DNA from: Desulfoscipio gibsoniae DSM 7213
Lineage (GTDB): Bacteria > Bacillota > Desulfotomaculia > Desulfotomaculales > Desulfallaceae
DNA length: 64,000 nt
Reading direction: 5' to 3'
NCBI RefSeq assembly: GCF_000233715.2
Contig: NC_021184.1
Coordinates: forward strand, 3,558,001 to 3,622,000
Part shown: positions 50,314 to 57,736 of the stretch, piece after piece
Position numbering within the stretch: the first letter of the stretch is position 1
Layout: the number at the start of each line of letters is the position of its first letter
Program-made: the position numbers and the translations under genes
The notes under the pieces: model-generated
The model's database searches: none
Seen by the model: the letters and a program-made list of their open reading frames with translations, nothing else
What the model was told of the DNA's origin: nothing

Positions 50314-50782
50314 ATGTGTCGGCCGAGGTAAAGGAAGGCAAATCTACCACATCATTTTGCCGTCTCTTTTTTTTAATCTGCTTATGCATTTTGCTTTGCA
50401 CAGCATTAAAATATCCGGTCTTATATACGAAAGTCAGCTTATATGGATTATTATTCCCATCCTCATCTACTTCTCCGATAATAACCTTTTCCACAATACT
50501 TTCAAACACACATCGGTCGAAAGCCGTTAAAACTTCATTCTTCTCAAGCACCTTGCGGAAGTGTTCTATCCGCTTTGCCAGGTCAATTTCTTCTTGAGAG
50601 GATTGCTGCAACCGCTCTTTTTCGCTAAGAAGATCACCTAATATTAATTCGAATTCTCCGTACTTTTTCTCGTAAGCTGCTTTGTCTATTGTTTCTTCCA
50701 AACGCATATCAATCAACCTATTGCGCTTCTGCTCAATAGAATGTAGCCTTTTCAAAGACTTCTTCACTTACAATAGGCTCAC
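50309..50782 (-). pseudogene. Decayed large serine recombinase (C-terminal part)
   Basis: About 150 codons of coiled-coil C-terminal region: RLHSIEQKRNRLIDMRLEET, then KYGEFELILGDLLSEKERLQ and CVFESIVEKVIIGEVDEDGN. Just upstream, in another frame, EPIVSEEVFEK is read, the typical recombinase phrase preceding the zinc ribbon. So the zinc-ribbon segment has been deleted with a frame change, and the catalytic domain is missing. The remnant begins right after the paaK stop codon. Its 3' end runs into the att-like repeat. Confidence 0.85.
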
Positions 50783-52062
50783 TATTCCCTTAAATCAAAG
50801 ACACGTTTACTTTTCTTTTCAGATCTTGGCAAGCTGCCATAGTCTACAACCTCTACATCACATTTGATACCAATGCGGGATTTTATATTTTTAGAGCATT
50901 CTTCCTGTATCTTTAACGGTTCACAGCCCTCTTGTTTTTCCACCTTTATTAAAATACGATCCCTACCATTTACACGGGTAAGAATAATCTGATATTCACT
51001 TGCTGCTCCCTCTGTAATCTTTAAAACATGATCAATTTGGCCAGGGTAGATGTTCACCCCTTTTATTTTGATCATATCATCAGTTCTACCAAGTACCCGG
51101 TCAATCATGGGAAAGGGAGATCCGCAGGAGCAATACTTTAGACGAAGTCTGGTAATATCATGGGTGCGATACCGTAATAAAGGCATCCCTTCCTTGGTTA
51201 ATGTAGTAATCACCAGTTCCCCTTGTTGGCCGGGGGGAAGTTGTTCACCGGTTGCAGGGTCAATAATTTCAAACAACAAATGATCTGACCAATAGTGTAA
51301 ACCGTCATGGTTTTTACAATCAATAGCAATTCCTGGACCGTAAATCTCCGTTAATCCATAGATATCATAGGTTTCAATTCCTAAAATATCTTCTATATAT
51401 TTACGCATTTTATCTCCCCAGCGTTCACTACCAATAATTCCTTTACGCAGGGCCAGCTTATTTTTGATACCATGTTTATTAATTTCTTCCGCCAGAAGTA
51501 ACCCATAGGAAGATGTCGAAGCAAATACGGTGGTTTGTAAATCCTCCATCATCTCAAGTTGCTTTTCAGTATTGCCCGGTCCTGTAGGAATGGCCATTGC
51601 CCCTAATTTTTCCACTCCAGCTTGGAACCCAATTCCCGCAGTCCACAGCCCATACCCCGGAGTTACTTGTACTCGATCCCTATTTGAAACACCTGCATAG
51701 GAAAAGCAACGAGCCATCATTTCTGCCCAGGTATTAACATCCTCCACAGTATAGGGTACAATAATTGGTTTACCTGTTGTGCCGGAGGATGAATGAATCC
51801 GTACCACTTGCTCTTCGGGAACTGCCTGAAGTCCAAGGGGATAACCCATTCTTAATTCCGCCTTGGTAGTAAAGGGTACCTTATTCAAATCTTGAATGGT
51901 TTGAATTTGCTCCGGCTTTATACCTGCTTCATCCAACTTATGGCGATAAAAAGGCGAGCATTTGTAGATCCGCTGCACCATTTTGCGTAACTGCTTTGCC
52001 TGAGCCTCAAAAAGCTGGTCATAGTTAAAGTAAATTTCCTCCAGGTTCAGTACGGTAGACAT
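50782..52062 (-). CDS. paaK: Phenylacetate/indoleacetate--CoA ligase (PaaK-type)
   Basis: 426 residues. ANL-superfamily motifs: AMP-binding loop IHSSSGTTGKPIIVPYT, YDIYGLTEIYGPGIAIDC, RLRYRTHDITRL, and the C-terminal lid GRTDDMIKIKGVNIYP. It joins aryl acetates to CoA with ATP. Last gene of an operon with IorAB and an ECF transporter, which points to indoleacetate or phenylacetate. It follows iorB by 2 nt. Confidence 0.93.
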   Translation of the reverse strand: MSTVLNLEEIYFNYDQLFEAQAKQLRKMVQRIYKCSPFYRHKLDEAGIKPEQIQTIQDLNKVPFTTKAELRMGYPLGLQAVPEEQVVRIHSSSGTTGKPIIVPYTVEDVNTWAEMMARCFSYAGVSNRDRVQVTPGYGLWTAGIGFQAGVEKLGAMAIPTGPGNTEKQLEMMEDLQTTVFASTSSYGLLLAEEINKHGIKNKLALRKGIIGSERWGDKMRKYIEDILGIETYDIYGLTEIYGPGIAIDCKNHDGLHYWSDHLLFEIIDPATGEQLPPGQQGELVITTLTKEGMPLLRYRTHDITRLRLKYCSCGSPFPMIDRVLGRTDDMIKIKGVNIYPGQIDHVLKITEGAASEYQIILTRVNGRDRILIKVEKQEGCEPLKIQEECSKNIKSRIGIKCDVEVVDYGSLPRSEKKSKRVFDLRE

Positions 52063-52064
52063 CC

Positions 52065-52655
52065 TTAGGCACCCCCTACAGCTTGCTGACCTAACTCAAA
52101 GGCCTTGAGATTTATTTCATGTAGTTTTTGGGGAATCATGTTCAACATAACTTCTTTAAGGTGATCCCCACCGTATGGCAGTAATTTTAGTGCTTCTAAA
52201 GCCCCCAGCATAACAATATTTGTTGCTTTAACAGTACCAGCCTGACTGGCTAAAGCAGTAGCATCGAATAAGTATAAAGATTGGGTGTTCTTTTTTAAAT
52301 AATCGACCAGTCCTACCGGATCATACTGTGAAATTCCCAAAGAAACAGAGACCGGGTAGATCGTATAAGAATTAGCGATAACCACTCCATCATTTTTTAT
52401 TTTATCAAGTCCACGAATGGTTTCCGCCAGCTCAAAGCCCAGGAGCACATCGGCTCCGCCATTTGGTATGAGGGAACCATAGTTACCCGCCCCCATCCGA
52501 ACATGACTCATGACCACTCCTTCTCTTTGCGCCATGCCAATAGCCTCGGATGTTTGAACCGGTAGTTCATATTCCATTGCCGCCCTGGCCAATATTCGGG
52601 AAGCCAGCACATTGCCCTGACCACCGACTCCAGCTATAACGATATCACATCTCAT
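52065..52655 (-). CDS. iorB: Indolepyruvate:ferredoxin oxidoreductase, beta subunit
   Basis: 196 residues from ATG 52,655, overlapping the iorA stop as ATGA. It opens MRCDIVIAGVGGQGNVLASR, the GVGGQG motif of 2-oxoacid:ferredoxin oxidoreductase gamma-type subunits, and contains SEAIGMAQREGVVMSHVRMG. With IorA it interconverts aryl pyruvates and aryl-acetyl-CoA using ferredoxin. Confidence 0.95.
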   Translation of the reverse strand: MRCDIVIAGVGGQGNVLASRILARAAMEYELPVQTSEAIGMAQREGVVMSHVRMGAGNYGSLIPNGGADVLLGFELAETIRGLDKIKNDGVVIANSYTIYPVSVSLGISQYDPVGLVDYLKKNTQSLYLFDATALASQAGTVKATNIVMLGALEALKLLPYGGDHLKEVMLNMIPQKLHEINLKAFELGQQAVGGA

Positions 52656-54451
52656 CGAACTACACCCCGCTCTACAATAGCTTCTGCCGGACATATCTGG
52701 CCGCAAAGATTGCAGCCATTGCAGGTTTCCTCAATAACCGGCGTCTCTCCTCTACGGGAAATGGCCGGGCACCCCAGCTCTTCCACACAAAAGCCACAAC
52801 CAATGCATTTCTCTTCATCGATAACCATTGATTTCCGGTTACCTTTTATTAGAGCAATGCATTCCCTTTTCATGACAACTACTGAGACCCCTTCAAATTT
52901 CAAAGCTTCCCGGGCAACTTCCACGGCAGCCACATAATCATAGGGATCTACTTCCTTAATATACCGAACCCCACAAGCCTTTGCCAGTTCTACAATATTT
53001 AACGCTATTGTAGAATCCCCTGTGGCAGTTCGATTAAGTCCGGGGTGACTTTGGTGGCCTGTCATCGCAGTAGTCCGGTTATCCAGTACCACCACTGTTA
53101 TATTGGAATTGTTATGTACAGCATTGATTAGGCCTGTAATACCCGAATGAAAGAATGTAGAATCCCCTATAAAAGCAATGACTTCACGCTGTTTTTCCGC
53201 CCGTTGTAAACCTGCACCCAAAGAGATGCCGGCTCCCATACAAAGGCAAGTATCCACCGCATCTAACGGCGCCATGTTACCCAGCGTGTAACACCCGATA
53301 TCCCCTGTAAAGATAGCTTCTTTATCTGCAGCTTGTTTAAAGGCATAAAAGGATGCTCTATGGGGACAGCCGGCACATAACACAGGTGGCCGAATGGGTA
53401 GCTGTAAGGAACCGGCTTCTTTGGTCTGAGCAGTACTTATTTCCAGAACCTGTGACAAAATGGCCACTACCTTATTAACATTCAGTTCCCCTTCTCTCGG
53501 CACCAAACGGTCGTGTTTCCCCCTTACATGAGGAAACTTGTTTTGCTGCAAGATAAGTTTAATAATTTGATCTTCCAGTACAGGTTCTTGCTCCTCAATA
53601 ACCAGAACCTGATCCAGTGGTTCTATAAACTCTAATACTTTATTGGTAGGCATTGGGTGAGGTGTACCAATTTTACACACTGGTAATTCGAGGCCCAATG
53701 CTTCAAGGGCTTCTCTGACGTATCGGTAGGAAACTCCACCAGTTATAATCCCCAGACTGCCAGACCCCGGAATAATCGTATTAAAGGAGCTGTCCTCAAA
53801 AATCTTCCTCATTACCTCTTGCTGCTGGTTTAGCCATATATGTTGTTTGGCAGCCAGGTTTGGGACAATAACCCATTTGGGATTTTTTTCAAAGCCAATG
53901 GGTATTATGGATCGAGAAATCTCTTCTGTCACTTCTACTTCCTGACAACCATGACAGGTTCGAGTAGTTGGTCGTAAAATAACCGGTAAACCAAGTTGTT
54001 CGGAAAGCTCAAAGGCTGCTTTGACCATTTCTTTTGCCTCCCGTGGATCGGAGGGATCCAATACGGGAAGCTTGGCAAACCGGGCAAAAAAACGGGTATC
54101 TTGCTCATTTTGGGAACTATGGGGACCAGGGTCATCGGCCACTACCAATACCAGCCCCCCCTTAACTCCAATATAGGCCAATGTCATCAGGGGATCTGAT
54201 GCTACATTCAGTCCCACCTGTTTCATCGTAACCATTGCTCTGGCCCCGGAGTAAGCTGCTCCCGCAGCTACTTCCAGTGCTACTTTCTCGTTAACTGACC
54301 ATTCTGCATAAATGCCCTTCTCTTTGGCCATTTGAGCAAGCGTCATTAAAACCTCGGATGAAGGGGTACCGGGATACCCGGTAACCACCTGAACTCCTGC
54401 TTCCATTGCTCCGTAGGCAATGGCTTCGTTTCCCATTAACAATTTCTTCAT
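52652..54451 (-). CDS. iorA: Indolepyruvate:ferredoxin oxidoreductase, alpha subunit
   Basis: 599 residues with GGAGG upstream. Pyrimidine-binding N-terminal domain (GNEAIAYGAMEAGVQVVTGY), TPP-binding domain with CAGCPHRASF and GDIGCYTLGNMAPLDAVDTC, and two C-terminal 4Fe-4S motifs (CIGCGFCVEELGCP, CNGCNLCGQICP). Complete; acts on indolepyruvate or phenylpyruvate. Confidence 0.95.
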   Translation of the reverse strand: MKKLLMGNEAIAYGAMEAGVQVVTGYPGTPSSEVLMTLAQMAKEKGIYAEWSVNEKVALEVAAGAAYSGARAMVTMKQVGLNVASDPLMTLAYIGVKGGLVLVVADDPGPHSSQNEQDTRFFARFAKLPVLDPSDPREAKEMVKAAFELSEQLGLPVILRPTTRTCHGCQEVEVTEEISRSIIPIGFEKNPKWVIVPNLAAKQHIWLNQQQEVMRKIFEDSSFNTIIPGSGSLGIITGGVSYRYVREALEALGLELPVCKIGTPHPMPTNKVLEFIEPLDQVLVIEEQEPVLEDQIIKLILQQNKFPHVRGKHDRLVPREGELNVNKVVAILSQVLEISTAQTKEAGSLQLPIRPPVLCAGCPHRASFYAFKQAADKEAIFTGDIGCYTLGNMAPLDAVDTCLCMGAGISLGAGLQRAEKQREVIAFIGDSTFFHSGITGLINAVHNNSNITVVVLDNRTTAMTGHQSHPGLNRTATGDSTIALNIVELAKACGVRYIKEVDPYDYVAAVEVAREALKFEGVSVVVMKRECIALIKGNRKSMVIDEEKCIGCGFCVEELGCPAISRRGETPVIEETCNGCNLCGQICPAEAIVERGVVR

Positions 54452-54466
54452 ATAAAAAGACCTCCA

Positions 54467-55261
54467 TTAATAATGAACAATCCCATATCCTTGCAAGCGG
54501 AAAGTAATAGCAAGTATCACAGTAGCAATGACCATAACCATAACAAGAGTATCCAGTTTGGTTAGAACCGGCTCTTGATAGTACGTGCGCTTGCCACAGC
54601 CAAAGCCCCTTGTTTCCATGGCAATTGCCAATCTCTCCGCCTTTTTAAGCGAAACTAAAACCAGGGGCAAAGCAACCGCCTGATATGCCTTTAGCTTCTG
54701 CCACGGATTCCCACTATCAACAGGACAACCCCGCACTTGCTGAGCATATCGCACTTGAACTGCTTCGTCAAGAAAGGTAGGCACAAAACGCAGGGCTGTC
54801 ATGAACATAAACACATAATCATAAGGCAAGCGAAGCTTCTCTGTAAGAACCAATAGGATGTCCTTAAACTGGGTGGTCGACAAGAAGATCAGAAAACTCA
54901 ATACCACGGTAATCATTCTTAAACCCATGGCTAGTCCTAACAGTAAAGCCTCCTTGGTGACCGGGAGATGCTGATCAGGTAAAAGATAAAATAAAACCAT
55001 ATTTCCCTGAAGGAAAAAAATTTGTAAGAGGACTAGTATACTTGCAAAAATTAATAAGCCTTTTAATACAAAGGCTAGATTTAATAATACCCTTGCCATA
55101 AGACCAGTCAAAATAACCAATACTAAAAGAGCTAATAAATAAAACACATTATTAAATGATAAGGCAAGAATCATGACCCCCAGTGCCCAAAACAACTTAC
55201 TTAATGGATTTAATCTGTGAATAAAAGAATTACAGTCAATATACTCTGTAACTCGTGCCAT
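54467..55261 (-). CDS. ecfT: ECF transporter transmembrane component EcfT
   Basis: 264 residues, ATG 55,261 overlapping the upstream ATPase stop (TGATG). Five to six membrane segments and the coupling-helix motifs AMETRGFGCG and QVRGCPVD. It carries energy from the ATPases to the S component. Confidence 0.92.
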   Translation of the reverse strand: MARVTEYIDCNSFIHRLNPLSKLFWALGVMILALSFNNVFYLLALLVLVILTGLMARVLLNLAFVLKGLLIFASILVLLQIFFLQGNMVLFYLLPDQHLPVTKEALLLGLAMGLRMITVVLSFLIFLSTTQFKDILLVLTEKLRLPYDYVFMFMTALRFVPTFLDEAVQVRYAQQVRGCPVDSGNPWQKLKAYQAVALPLVLVSLKKAERLAIAMETRGFGCGKRTYYQEPVLTKLDTLVMVMVIATVILAITFRLQGYGIVHY

Positions 55262-56100
55262 CACGCCCCGCCCTCCATCATTGCTTGTAAGTTGGAGTAC
55301 ATTTCTTCTACTGTTAATACAGTTGTTGCACCAGGTCTGTTTAATGTTTCATTTAATCGATTCGATAGTAAAGTTATTTGAGGCGGTTTGAGAAATGACT
55401 TGGCCAACTGTTCCGGTTTAGCCAATGCATCTTGTGTGGAATTATCCAGAATAATTTCCCCCTGACAAAGAACAACCACCCTTTTAGCATACCTTGCTAC
55501 TAAAGACATATCGTGGGTGATAAAAATTACCGTATGTCCTCGTTTATTTAAATCTGCAACTAAATTCATAATCTGTATTTTCTCCCACTGGTCTTGCCCT
55601 GTGGTCGGTTCATCTAAAACAATGACTTCCGGTTTCATAGCTAATACACAGGCCAATGCCAATCTCTGCCGCTGGCCCCTGCTTAAACTTAACGGATATT
55701 GGCCTGCCAGCAATTCCAGCCCAACTTCCTTGAGGGCAGTGGTTACCCGTTGCTTCATTTCATCCTCTGGCAAACCAAGATTCCTTAACCCAAAGGCAAC
55801 CTCTTGATTTACTGTTTGATGAAAAATTTGGTGATCCGGGTTCTGGAAAACGAAACCAACCTGTTTCGCCATTTTTGAAACCGGAGTGGCTGCTACGTCA
55901 TTTCCACAAACAATCACCTGATCGGGCGGGGGTTTAAGAATTCCAATGATATGTTTAGCCAAGGTCGTTTTACCTGCACCGTTTTGCCCCACCAGCGCAA
56001 CGATTTCTCCGGGGTAAATATTTAAGTCAATATCCCGCAAGGCTCTTTGGCCACCTTCATATCGGTATGAAAGTCCCTTGATTTCAAGAATAGGTTTCAT
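55261..56100 (-). CDS. ecfA: ECF transporter ATPase
   Basis: 279 residues with GGAGGT upstream. ABC motifs: Walker A LVGQNGAGKTTLAKHI, Q-loop FVFQNPDHQIF, signature LSRGQRQRLALA (variant of LSGGQ), Walker B VIVLDEPTTGQD, His switch FITHD. Typical EcfA; pairs with the next ATPase. Confidence 0.93.
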   Translation of the reverse strand: MKPILEIKGLSYRYEGGQRALRDIDLNIYPGEIVALVGQNGAGKTTLAKHIIGILKPPPDQVIVCGNDVAATPVSKMAKQVGFVFQNPDHQIFHQTVNQEVAFGLRNLGLPEDEMKQRVTTALKEVGLELLAGQYPLSLSRGQRQRLALACVLAMKPEVIVLDEPTTGQDQWEKIQIMNLVADLNKRGHTVIFITHDMSLVARYAKRVVVLCQGEIILDNSTQDALAKPEQLAKSFLKPPQITLLSNRLNETLNRPGATTVLTVEEMYSNLQAMMEGGA

Positions 56101-56103
56101 AAT

Positions 56104-56958
56104 TTACCTCCGCTGATTTAGGAGGGTCTGGCAATATTGAACCCCCTCCTCCAAAGTTATGGGCATATCTATATCCAAATTATCAAATTGATGCGCTAAT
56201 TCCGTTACCTGTGGTATGGCGACCCCAAGTTGGAGAATGTTTTTATCCTTAAAGACTTCGCCGGGAGAACCATCCAAAAGTATACTGCCTTGATTTAGCA
56301 CCACCAATCTATGACAGCAAGAGGCCAGTAAATCCGTTTTTTGCTCTGTTACCAGAACAGTAATTCCCTGTTCTATATTTAGTCGCCTCAAAACCTTGAA
56401 TACTTCCTCACTACCTAGAGGATCCAGTTCCGAGGTTGGTTCATCCAAAATTAGAATCTCTGGTTGTATAACCAGAGCTGCTGCAATGGCAAGCCGTTGT
56501 TTTTCGCCTCCGGAAAGAGAATGGGTGGATCTACCCCGCAGGTGAGCGATACCTACACTGGATAAGGCAGTCACCATCCGCTGCTCCATTTCCGATGGAT
56601 CAATTCCGAAGTTTTCCATACCAAAAGCCAATTCCTGCTCTACATCCAGACAAATAACCTGGGCTTCCGGATCATCCAATACTGTCCCCACCACTCTACT
56701 AATTTGGGGTAAGGACATGTCTCGAACAGGTCTACCTTTAATGTAAACACTTCCACCTACTGCACCCCCTTCAAAATAGGGGATAATTCCATTTATCGAT
56801 TTTAACAAGGTGGTTTTACCAGCTCCTGCAGGACCGGTAAAACCAACAAAAGAACCTTTTTTGATTTTCAACTCTACGTTGTTTAATGCGCTATGCTGGG
56901 AATTTGGGTAACAGTACGTAAATTGTTCAAACTGAATGATGGTCTCTGCTGCTGTCAT
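56104..56958 (-). CDS. ecfA: ECF transporter ATPase
   Basis: 284 residues with GGAGGA upstream. Walker A FTGPAGAGKTTLLKSI, Q-loop TVLDDPEAQVICLDVEQELA, signature HSLSGGEKQRLAIA, Walker B ILILDEPTSELD; the switch position reads VTEQK and not the usual TH-D, a variation seen in one of the two ECF ATPases. Follows the S component by 20 nt. Confidence 0.93.
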   Translation of the reverse strand: MTAAETIIQFEQFTYCYPNSQHSALNNVELKIKKGSFVGFTGPAGAGKTTLLKSINGIIPYFEGGAVGGSVYIKGRPVRDMSLPQISRVVGTVLDDPEAQVICLDVEQELAFGMENFGIDPSEMEQRMVTALSSVGIAHLRGRSTHSLSGGEKQRLAIAAALVIQPEILILDEPTSELDPLGSEEVFKVLRRLNIEQGITVLVTEQKTDLLASCCHRLVVLNQGSILLDGSPGEVFKDKNILQLGVAIPQVTELAHQFDNLDIDMPITLEEGVQYCQTLLNQRR

Positions 56959-56978
56959 TGTACTTCCTCCCGTGCTTA

Positions 56979-57527
56979 TTATCGAAAGAGGTACTTTCTT
57001 ATTGGTGCATATAAGGCCTGGGCCATGACCATATTTATCAGAGCCACGGGAATGACTACACCGATAAAGGCAGCTTTCATAGCAGCCGGCGGTAGGTGAA
57101 GGGCCAGTTGAAAGTTTAATATGATATATAAACCGCCACTTACAAGGGTGCCCAAAAACGTTGCTAAACAGGGCTTAAATGAATATTTTTTAATCGAGAA
57201 TTCCGGTAAGTAGTAGGTTAGCAGGGCACACATAAGTGCTCCTGCCGGTTCACTAAACAAGTTAAGATAAGGAATCGGGGATTTAGAAAAAATCATACTG
57301 ATTGCTCCCGCAACAATACCGATACCCAAAGCAGCCCCCAGCTTGGGACGAAGCAGCAAAATGGAAATGCAATACATGGCTATAATAAAATTAGGGGTAA
57401 TACCTAAAATAGCAGGGGAAAACATACGTAAAACTGCACCAATGGCAATTAAAAAGGCAACTACGGCAATTTCTTTTGACCGGGTCATTCCCGTAGAGGT
57501 AACTTGCTCAACGACTGGATTATTCAT
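56979..57527 (-). CDS. trpP: TrpP-like ECF substrate-binding (S) component, probably tryptophan
   Basis: 182 residues from ATG 57,527, with GAGGAG 8 nt upstream; ATG 57,533 is too close to it. Five to six membrane segments. The N-terminal region FLIAIGAVLRMFSPAILGIT followed by PNFIIAMYCISILLL resembles TrpP (IGAVLR ... KPDF), and the protein lies with ATPase and T genes, so it is an S component. The operon context (IorAB, PaaK) and the TRAP-type leader both point to tryptophan. The assignment of substrate is an inference. Confidence 0.75.
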   Translation of the reverse strand: MNNPVVEQVTSTGMTRSKEIAVVAFLIAIGAVLRMFSPAILGITPNFIIAMYCISILLLRPKLGAALGIGIVAGAISMIFSKSPIPYLNLFSEPAGALMCALLTYYLPEFSIKKYSFKPCLATFLGTLVSGGLYIILNFQLALHLPPAAMKAAFIGVVIPVALINMVMAQALYAPIRKYLFR

Positions 57528-57528
57528 T

Positions 57529-57546
57529 CTCATCTCTCCTCATCTC
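57529..57546 (-). promoter_or_regulatory. GAG cluster over the trpP ribosome binding site
   Basis: Minus strand GAGATGAGGAGAGATGAG: four GAG triplets each separated by 2 nt, ending one nucleotide before the trpP ATG and including the Shine-Dalgarno sequence. TRAP bound here would block ribosome entry, as known for B. subtilis trpP. Confidence 0.75.
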
Positions 57547-57549
57547 AAA

Positions 57550-57580
57550 AATAAAAAACCAGACTTCTAAAGCCTGGTTT
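57550..57580 (-). terminator. Leader terminator (attenuator) of the trpP operon
   Basis: Minus strand AAACCAG, 11-nt loop, CTGGTTT then TTTATTTTT. It lies between the triplet array and the first gene, so it must be bypassed for expression. Confidence 0.85.
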
Positions 57581-57593
57581 AAGACACGGTTAA

Positions 57594-57647
57594 CTCAGCT
57601 CAGCCGTACTCTTCCTGGGCTCATCTCTTCTCAACTCACCTCCGCTA
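57594..57647 (-). promoter_or_regulatory. TRAP (MtrB) binding array of 11 triplets
   Basis: Minus strand, 54 nt: TAG, GAG x5, CAG, GAG, CGG, GAG, GAG, with spacers CG, GT, TT, AA, AT, CC, GAA, TA, CT, CT. Nine positions fit (G/U)AG exactly; the two exceptions (CAG, CGG) keep register. Eleven triplets with 2-3 nt spacing is the exact footprint of the 11-subunit TRAP ring. Confidence 0.88.
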
Positions 57648-57664
57648 TAAAATTGTCAACTCTC

Positions 57665-57698
57665 AGCTAAGACTGTTTTCACAGCCAACTCTTTAGCT
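57665..57698 (-). promoter_or_regulatory. 5' stem-loop of the trpP leader RNA
   Basis: Minus strand AGCTAAAGA pairs with TCTTAGCT (one bulge), and above it GGCTGT pairs with ACAGTC around a GAAA tetraloop. A 5' stem-loop preceding the triplet array also exists in the B. subtilis trp leader, where it aids TRAP binding. Confidence 0.75.
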
Positions 57699-57707
57699 AT
57701 CGAAATT

Positions 57708-57736
57708 ATTCTACCACAACTTGCAACCACTGTCAT
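57708..57736 (-). promoter_or_regulatory. Promoter of the trpP-ecf-ior-paaK operon
   Basis: Minus strand ATGACA (57,736-57,731), 17-bp spacer, TAGAAT (57,713-57,708). Each hexamer matches five of six consensus positions. Predicted start near 57,700, directly at the 5' stem-loop. Confidence 0.75.

Follow-up and report, generated by a model that had tools for sequence, protein, structure and literature searches.

A predicted TRAP attenuator in the leader of a probable tryptophan-acquisition operon of Desulfoscipio gibsoniae

Introduction

The trpP gene of the anaerobe Desulfoscipio gibsoniae DSM 7213, which encodes an ECF S component for tryptophan (Trp), is preceded by a leader rich in closely spaced GAG triplets. 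This raises the question of whether the leader is a switch operated by the Trp-dependent TRAP protein (MtrB), and what the genes behind it would do for the cell. The analysis was based on a 64,000-nt stretch of contig NC_021184.1 (positions 3,558,001 to 3,622,000, hereafter the window), on the complete 4.86-Mb genome, on 113 genomes of the class Desulfotomaculia, and on trpP loci from outside the class. An original prediction, made from the letters alone, had proposed a full TRAP attenuator with a second TRAP site in front of a complete ECF transporter operon. Judged from sequence, the leader is read here as a TRAP (MtrB) attenuator that would bind TRAP, terminate transcription in vivo and thereby switch off a Trp-acquisition operon, with a probability of roughly 0.93.

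Architecture of the leader and the proposed switch

Every element that had been predicted for the leader was recovered, namely the promoter, the GAAA-capped 5' stem-loop, a 54-nt array of 11 triplets with nine (G/U)AG, the terminator, and four further GAGs at 2-nt spacing over the ribosome site (Table 1). The best chain of registers in the array reads TAG GAG GAG GAG GAG GAG AGG GAG CGG GAG GAG, with spacers of 2 nt throughout except for a single one of 3 nt, and the terminator is composed of AAACCAGGCTT-TAG-AAGTCTGGTTT followed by TTTATTTTT. The second site ends 2 nt 5' of the likely trpP start codon (57527), and the ATG chosen by the ORF caller (57533) lies inside GAGatGAGgaGAGatGAG.

Table 1. 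Features of the trpP leader and of the genes behind it, in window coordinates
Feature	Position	Strand	Remarks
Leader region described	57736-57525	minus	
Sigma-A type promoter, ATGACA-17-TAGAAT	57708..57736	minus	TGACA...TATAAT-like arrangement also 5' of most orthologous leaders
5' stem-loop, GAAA loop, internal loop	57664..57699	minus	-12.5 kcal/mol; begins at expected transcription start
GACAATTTTATA element (also written GACAAnTnCATA)	57646..57657	minus	conserved; between 5' hairpin and array
TRAP-binding array (predicted)	57594..57647	minus	11 registers, nine (G/U)AG, 54 nt
Antiterminator (predicted)	57568..57622	minus	register 6 GAGCC with GGCTT of terminator 5' arm; helper hairpin enclosed
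Intrinsic terminator	57546..57580	minus	11-bp stem, U-rich tail
Second TRAP-like site, GAGatGAGgaGAGatGAG	57529..57546	minus	over trpP Shine-Dalgarno; four GAGs, exact 2-nt spacing
trpP, ECF S component for tryptophan	56979..57527	minus	PF17099, E 4e-15; start ATG 57527 likely, listed ORF 57533
ecfA1, ECF ATPase	56104..56958	minus	
ecfA2, ECF ATPase	55261..56100	minus	
ecfT, ECF transmembrane T component	54467..55264	minus	PF02361, EcfT/CbiQ family
iorA, indolepyruvate:ferredoxin oxidoreductase alpha	52652..54451	minus	TIGR03336 above cut-off, 830 bits
iorB, indolepyruvate oxidoreductase beta	52065..52706	minus	
paaK-type AMP-forming arylacetate-CoA ligase	50782..52062	minus	

In predicted folds, the antiterminator forms when the 3' arm of the terminator is absent or forbidden, and it is lost once the array is held single-stranded. 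For the full leader with a free array, RNAfold already preferred the terminator, so antitermination must be kinetic. In the proposed mechanism, Trp-loaded TRAP would wrap around the (G/U)AG array during its emergence from RNA polymerase. Register 6 could then no longer pair with the 5' arm of the terminator to give the antiterminator, the terminator would form instead, and trpP-ecfA1-ecfA2-ecfT-iorA-iorB-paaK would not be transcribed while Trp is plentiful. On transcripts that escape, TRAP bound to the four-GAG site over the Shine-Dalgarno might lower trpP translation, which is the less certain step. When Trp is scarce, the operon would make a self-contained ECF uptake system, and indole-acetate would most likely be converted to indoleacetyl-CoA by PaaK, by reductive carboxylation through IOR to indolepyruvate, and then to Trp.

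Specificity of the array and presence of the regulator

The array is a real feature of the leader and not a product of chance. When the leader was shuffled 3000 times with dinucleotides preserved, the array's score of nine registers was never reached and a score of eight was reached 12 times, and on the plus strand of the window the score never exceeded five. Genome-wide pattern searches placed exact GAGNNGAGNNGAGNNGAG at four sites only, all at trp genes: two belong to trpP (one in its leader, one over its ribosome site), one covers the ribosome site of trpD, and one lies in a leader between trpE and trpG. Likewise, five (G/T)AG triplets at 2-nt spacing were found at trp loci only. A reversed-pattern control is uninformative for GAG repeats, which read identically in both directions, and shuffles, hit locations and control ribosome sites were used instead. 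No Rfam family scored above its gathering threshold anywhere in the window. Low-complexity GAG arrays do occur in the class (at L099 and L125), as would be expected if the D. gibsoniae array were a chance purine repeat or the site of another RNA-binding protein; such an origin is highly improbable, given the shuffles and genome-wide tests, the retention of the array through diverged sequence, and the co-occurrence of arrays with mtrB described below.

The regulator gene, whose absence had been named as a reason to abandon the prediction, was found as a single copy in the genome (G000:C1:2477206-2477406; PF02081, 139 bits), and mtrB was present in 105 of the 113 genomes of the class. Solved TRAP structures align with almost the entire MtrB protein, and the core of MtrB (HHSEKLDKG...) is intact. 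Residues known from B. subtilis TRAP are kept, namely E36, K37, K40, K56 and R58 for RNA, and T25, T30, Q47 and T49 around Trp. A companion search for anti-TRAP (rtpA) returned no credible match in the genome; the class gave five weak matches, four of which are frames of 373-393 aa that are DnaJ-like by length.

Similar arrays were also expected upstream of trp genes, and were found there. Two TRAP-like arrays, each followed by a terminator, precede trpE (L060, 11265-11195, minus strand) and occupy the gap between trpE and trpG (L059, 1525-1430, minus strand), and a five-GAG array covers the ribosome site of trpD. The two arrays with terminators imply that Trp synthesis in this organism is very probably regulated by TRAP as well.

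Orthologous leaders and T-box alternatives

TrpP (PF17099) was identified in 24 of the 113 genomes, and each of the 24 upstream regions contains many (G/U)AG triplets at close spacing. Among leaders delimited by script, most hold 8-12 (G/U)AG within 42-76 nt. A terminator hairpin with a U-run was detected by strict criteria in 18 of the 24, several others having a shorter U-run, and a CA(A/G)nTnnATA motif, to which the GACAATTTTATA element of D. gibsoniae belongs, adjoins the array in 17 of the 24. Hairpins of unrelated sequence occur at the same 5' place in several orthologues, such as GTGAAAGG..CCTTTCAC. When the folds were truncated, the array was paired with four or more bases from the 5' arm of the terminator in most testable leaders, a predicted pairing that follows the antiterminator design of B. 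subtilis. The expectation that orthologous leaders keep the triplet spacing was borne out for the arrays themselves (24 of 24) but not for exact spacing everywhere: the strict 11-register score ranged from 5 to 11, with several leaders limited to 5-8 registers when spacers are held strictly to 2-3 nt, so that the spacing is irregular in some.

Outside the class, 78 further trpP loci were taken, and 65 leaders from genomes searched for mtrB were compared (17 from genomes with mtrB and 48 without). Array scores were higher where mtrB was present (Mann-Whitney P 3e-6, a value that relatedness makes only indicative), and a score of at least 6 was reached by 8 of the 17 leaders with mtrB versus 1 of the 48 without. 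The clear cases that combine mtrB with an array come from Thermoclostridium- and Ruminiclostridium-type genomes. A T-box motif was seen instead in 27 of the 48 leaders from genomes lacking mtrB; the 11 related loci submitted to Rfam gave no T-box hit at its gathering threshold, and the motif GGTGG(T/C)ACCGC is nonetheless visible in many. In Clostridia and Coriobacteria, trpP-ecf(-ior-paaK) operons orthologous to that of D. gibsoniae are likewise preceded by an RNA element of a kind linked to amino-acid starvation, but with a T-box motif in the place of the TRAP array. Synergistes-type genomes (L164, L175, L184, L185 and L197) possess mtrB, yet show a T-box motif before trpP; at L185, GAG triplets also lie near the start, and double T-box and TRAP control is possible there.

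The second site at the trpP ribosome site

Known TRAP sites have 9-11 repeats (PMC4347634). The second site holds four, is called only TRAP-like for this reason, and may exert a weak effect. Such a low number would also suit a reading in which TRAP attenuates the operon while the GAGs at the ribosome site are simply a purine-rich Shine-Dalgarno sequence without a TRAP role, and orthologues in families f16, f9, f10 and f14 indeed have an ordinary GGAGGT with no GAG cluster. However, four GAGN2 repeats are confined to trp genes in the genome, and 4-5 registers were counted in nine trpP ribosome-site regions of families f1, f6 and f8 (eight directly, and L048 if a later ATG is the start) versus none of 50 control regions of neighbouring genes scoring at least 4. 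Moreover, the ribosome sites of trpD or trpB carry five-GAG arrays in D. gibsoniae and in several other genomes. The Shine-Dalgarno reading is therefore somewhat unlikely, and these sequence comparisons make it fairly probable that the four-GAG site has a genuine TRAP role.

Operon content and the direction of IOR and PaaK

The predicted ECF module was confirmed, with TrpP, two ABC ATPases and an EcfT/CbiQ family protein encoded in one operon, but the predicted extent of the operon was too short, since it continues into iorA-iorB-paaK. No large gap separates the seven genes, which are presumably co-transcribed, and the substrate transported is probably Trp. The seven-gene order is kept in 15 of 19 class genomes examined at greater length (at L069, iorB was unmatched). 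The same operon occurs in many Clostridia and some Spirochaetes, also in genomes without mtrB, indicating that its link to Trp is independent of TRAP. A search for TrpP gave no match in the remaining genomes of the D. gibsoniae family. The operon proteins share 59-79% identity with their counterparts in family f8 (Desulforamulus and relatives), while TrpE/G/D share only 52-64% with f8. Horizontal transfer of the operon together with its leader (window 50782-57736) is possible on this basis.

When the class was scanned for runs of five GAGs spaced by 2 nt, most matches fell at trpE, trpG, trpD, trpB and trpP. Two genomes in which TrpP was not matched also have TRAP-type arrays with terminators directly 5' of iorA, and in two more genomes TRAP-type arrays precede paaK. 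These positions suggest that TRAP targets iorAB and paaK independently of the trpP leader.

IOR is classically an enzyme of amino acid fermentation. This background, together with the occurrence of the operon in Clostridia and Spirochaetes, would fit a degradative role of iorAB-paaK, in which Trp is converted to indole-acetate with reduction of ferredoxin and TRAP control is a by-product of the operon. Against such a role, repression by Trp would stop degradation while its substrate is present, and four genomes have TRAP-type arrays immediately at iorA or paaK. Furthermore, iorAB adjoins the gene for an AMP-forming arylacetate-CoA ligase, and a study of Bacteroides reads this same enzyme pair as biosynthetic, because the ligase favours formation of the CoA ester (PMC13285125). 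A precedent for IOR-dependent synthesis from aryl acids exists in methanogens (PMC4162585, PMC3462420). In the available text of these sources, neither TRAP nor a Trp transporter is linked with the route from arylacetates to aromatic amino acids in methanogens and Bacteroides. Degradation is thus an unlikely function. Given that TRAP would repress at high Trp and that the AMP-forming ligase favours the CoA ester, the operon most likely serves Trp acquisition, by uptake and by rebuilding from indole-acetate, with IOR running in the synthetic direction. Other IOR-alpha paralogues are present in the genome, so the substrate of the IOR in the operon is not proven, and these paralogues could serve degradation. 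One of them (G000:C1:1981133-1982869, L230) is reported with one in-frame TGA.

Further TRAP-type arrays in the class

Elsewhere in the Desulfotomaculia, TRAP-type arrays were observed before genes for several kinds of transporter, including a PF04392 ABC substrate-binding protein with a permease (TrpXYZ-like; L090), AA_permease (L100, L122 and L123) and a binding protein of DctP tripartite transporters (L108-L112). Most of these arrays have terminators, and the proteins are candidate transporters of Trp or indole acids. Two targets were unexpected: a ferredoxin with an aldehyde:ferredoxin oxidoreductase (L127, G090), and an iron alcohol dehydrogenase with an aldehyde dehydrogenase (L129 and L130, G097), which are possibly involved in indole-aldehyde metabolism. 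The low-complexity GAG tracts at L099 and L125 were left out as TRAP targets, as was L117, which is without a clear target gene. Whether the TRAP regulon of the Desulfotomaculia comprises all of Trp acquisition (ECF, ABC, APC and tripartite transporters, as well as IOR and PaaK), with the trpP operon hit twice, in transcription and at the ribosome site, is judged to be an even question.

Relation to known TRAP systems and implications

The leader shares with that of B. subtilis trpEDCFBA the 11 (G/U)AG registers, 2-3 nt spacers, 5' stem-loop and overlapping antiterminator and terminator, but the latter controls biosynthesis genes whereas that of D. gibsoniae precedes a transporter operon. In B. 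subtilis, the trpE ribosome site is masked via RNA structure; in D. gibsoniae, the ribosome site of the transporter gene bears a short GAG cluster of its own. The trpP gene of B. subtilis (yhaG) belongs to the same S-component family and is a TRAP target with a TRAP site over its ribosome site, but it is a lone gene under translational control only and shares the general EcfA1A2T, whereas the trpP of D. gibsoniae is preceded by a predicted attenuator acting on a complete dedicated ECF module plus iorAB-paaK. The translational control of B. subtilis trpP by TRAP has been documented (PMC13170310), and its product has been treated as an ECF S protein (PMC11487621).

Joint control of transcription and translation, which the original prediction had regarded as unusual, is already established for TRAP and the trp genes of B. 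subtilis (PMC3913778, PMC4027176, PMC13170310). Its claim of novelty has to be narrowed in the same way: TrpP, an ECF S component, is a known TRAP target, while TRAP control of a complete ECF module was not found described. No description of TRAP attenuation of a complete ECF operon or of ior/paaK was found in the open literature, which is a weak negative. The switch is known, and it is the set of target genes that appears to be undescribed.

These findings extend predicted TRAP attenuation beyond Bacillus to a whole transporter operon, and they depict one conserved Trp operon whose upstream RNA control is of the TRAP or the T-box kind depending on the lineage. If the wider reading of the TRAP regulon is true, TRAP control would show that IOR-PaaK operons make Trp. 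The findings also provide a regulatory argument for the direction of operons that combine IOR with an AMP-forming ligase in anaerobes.
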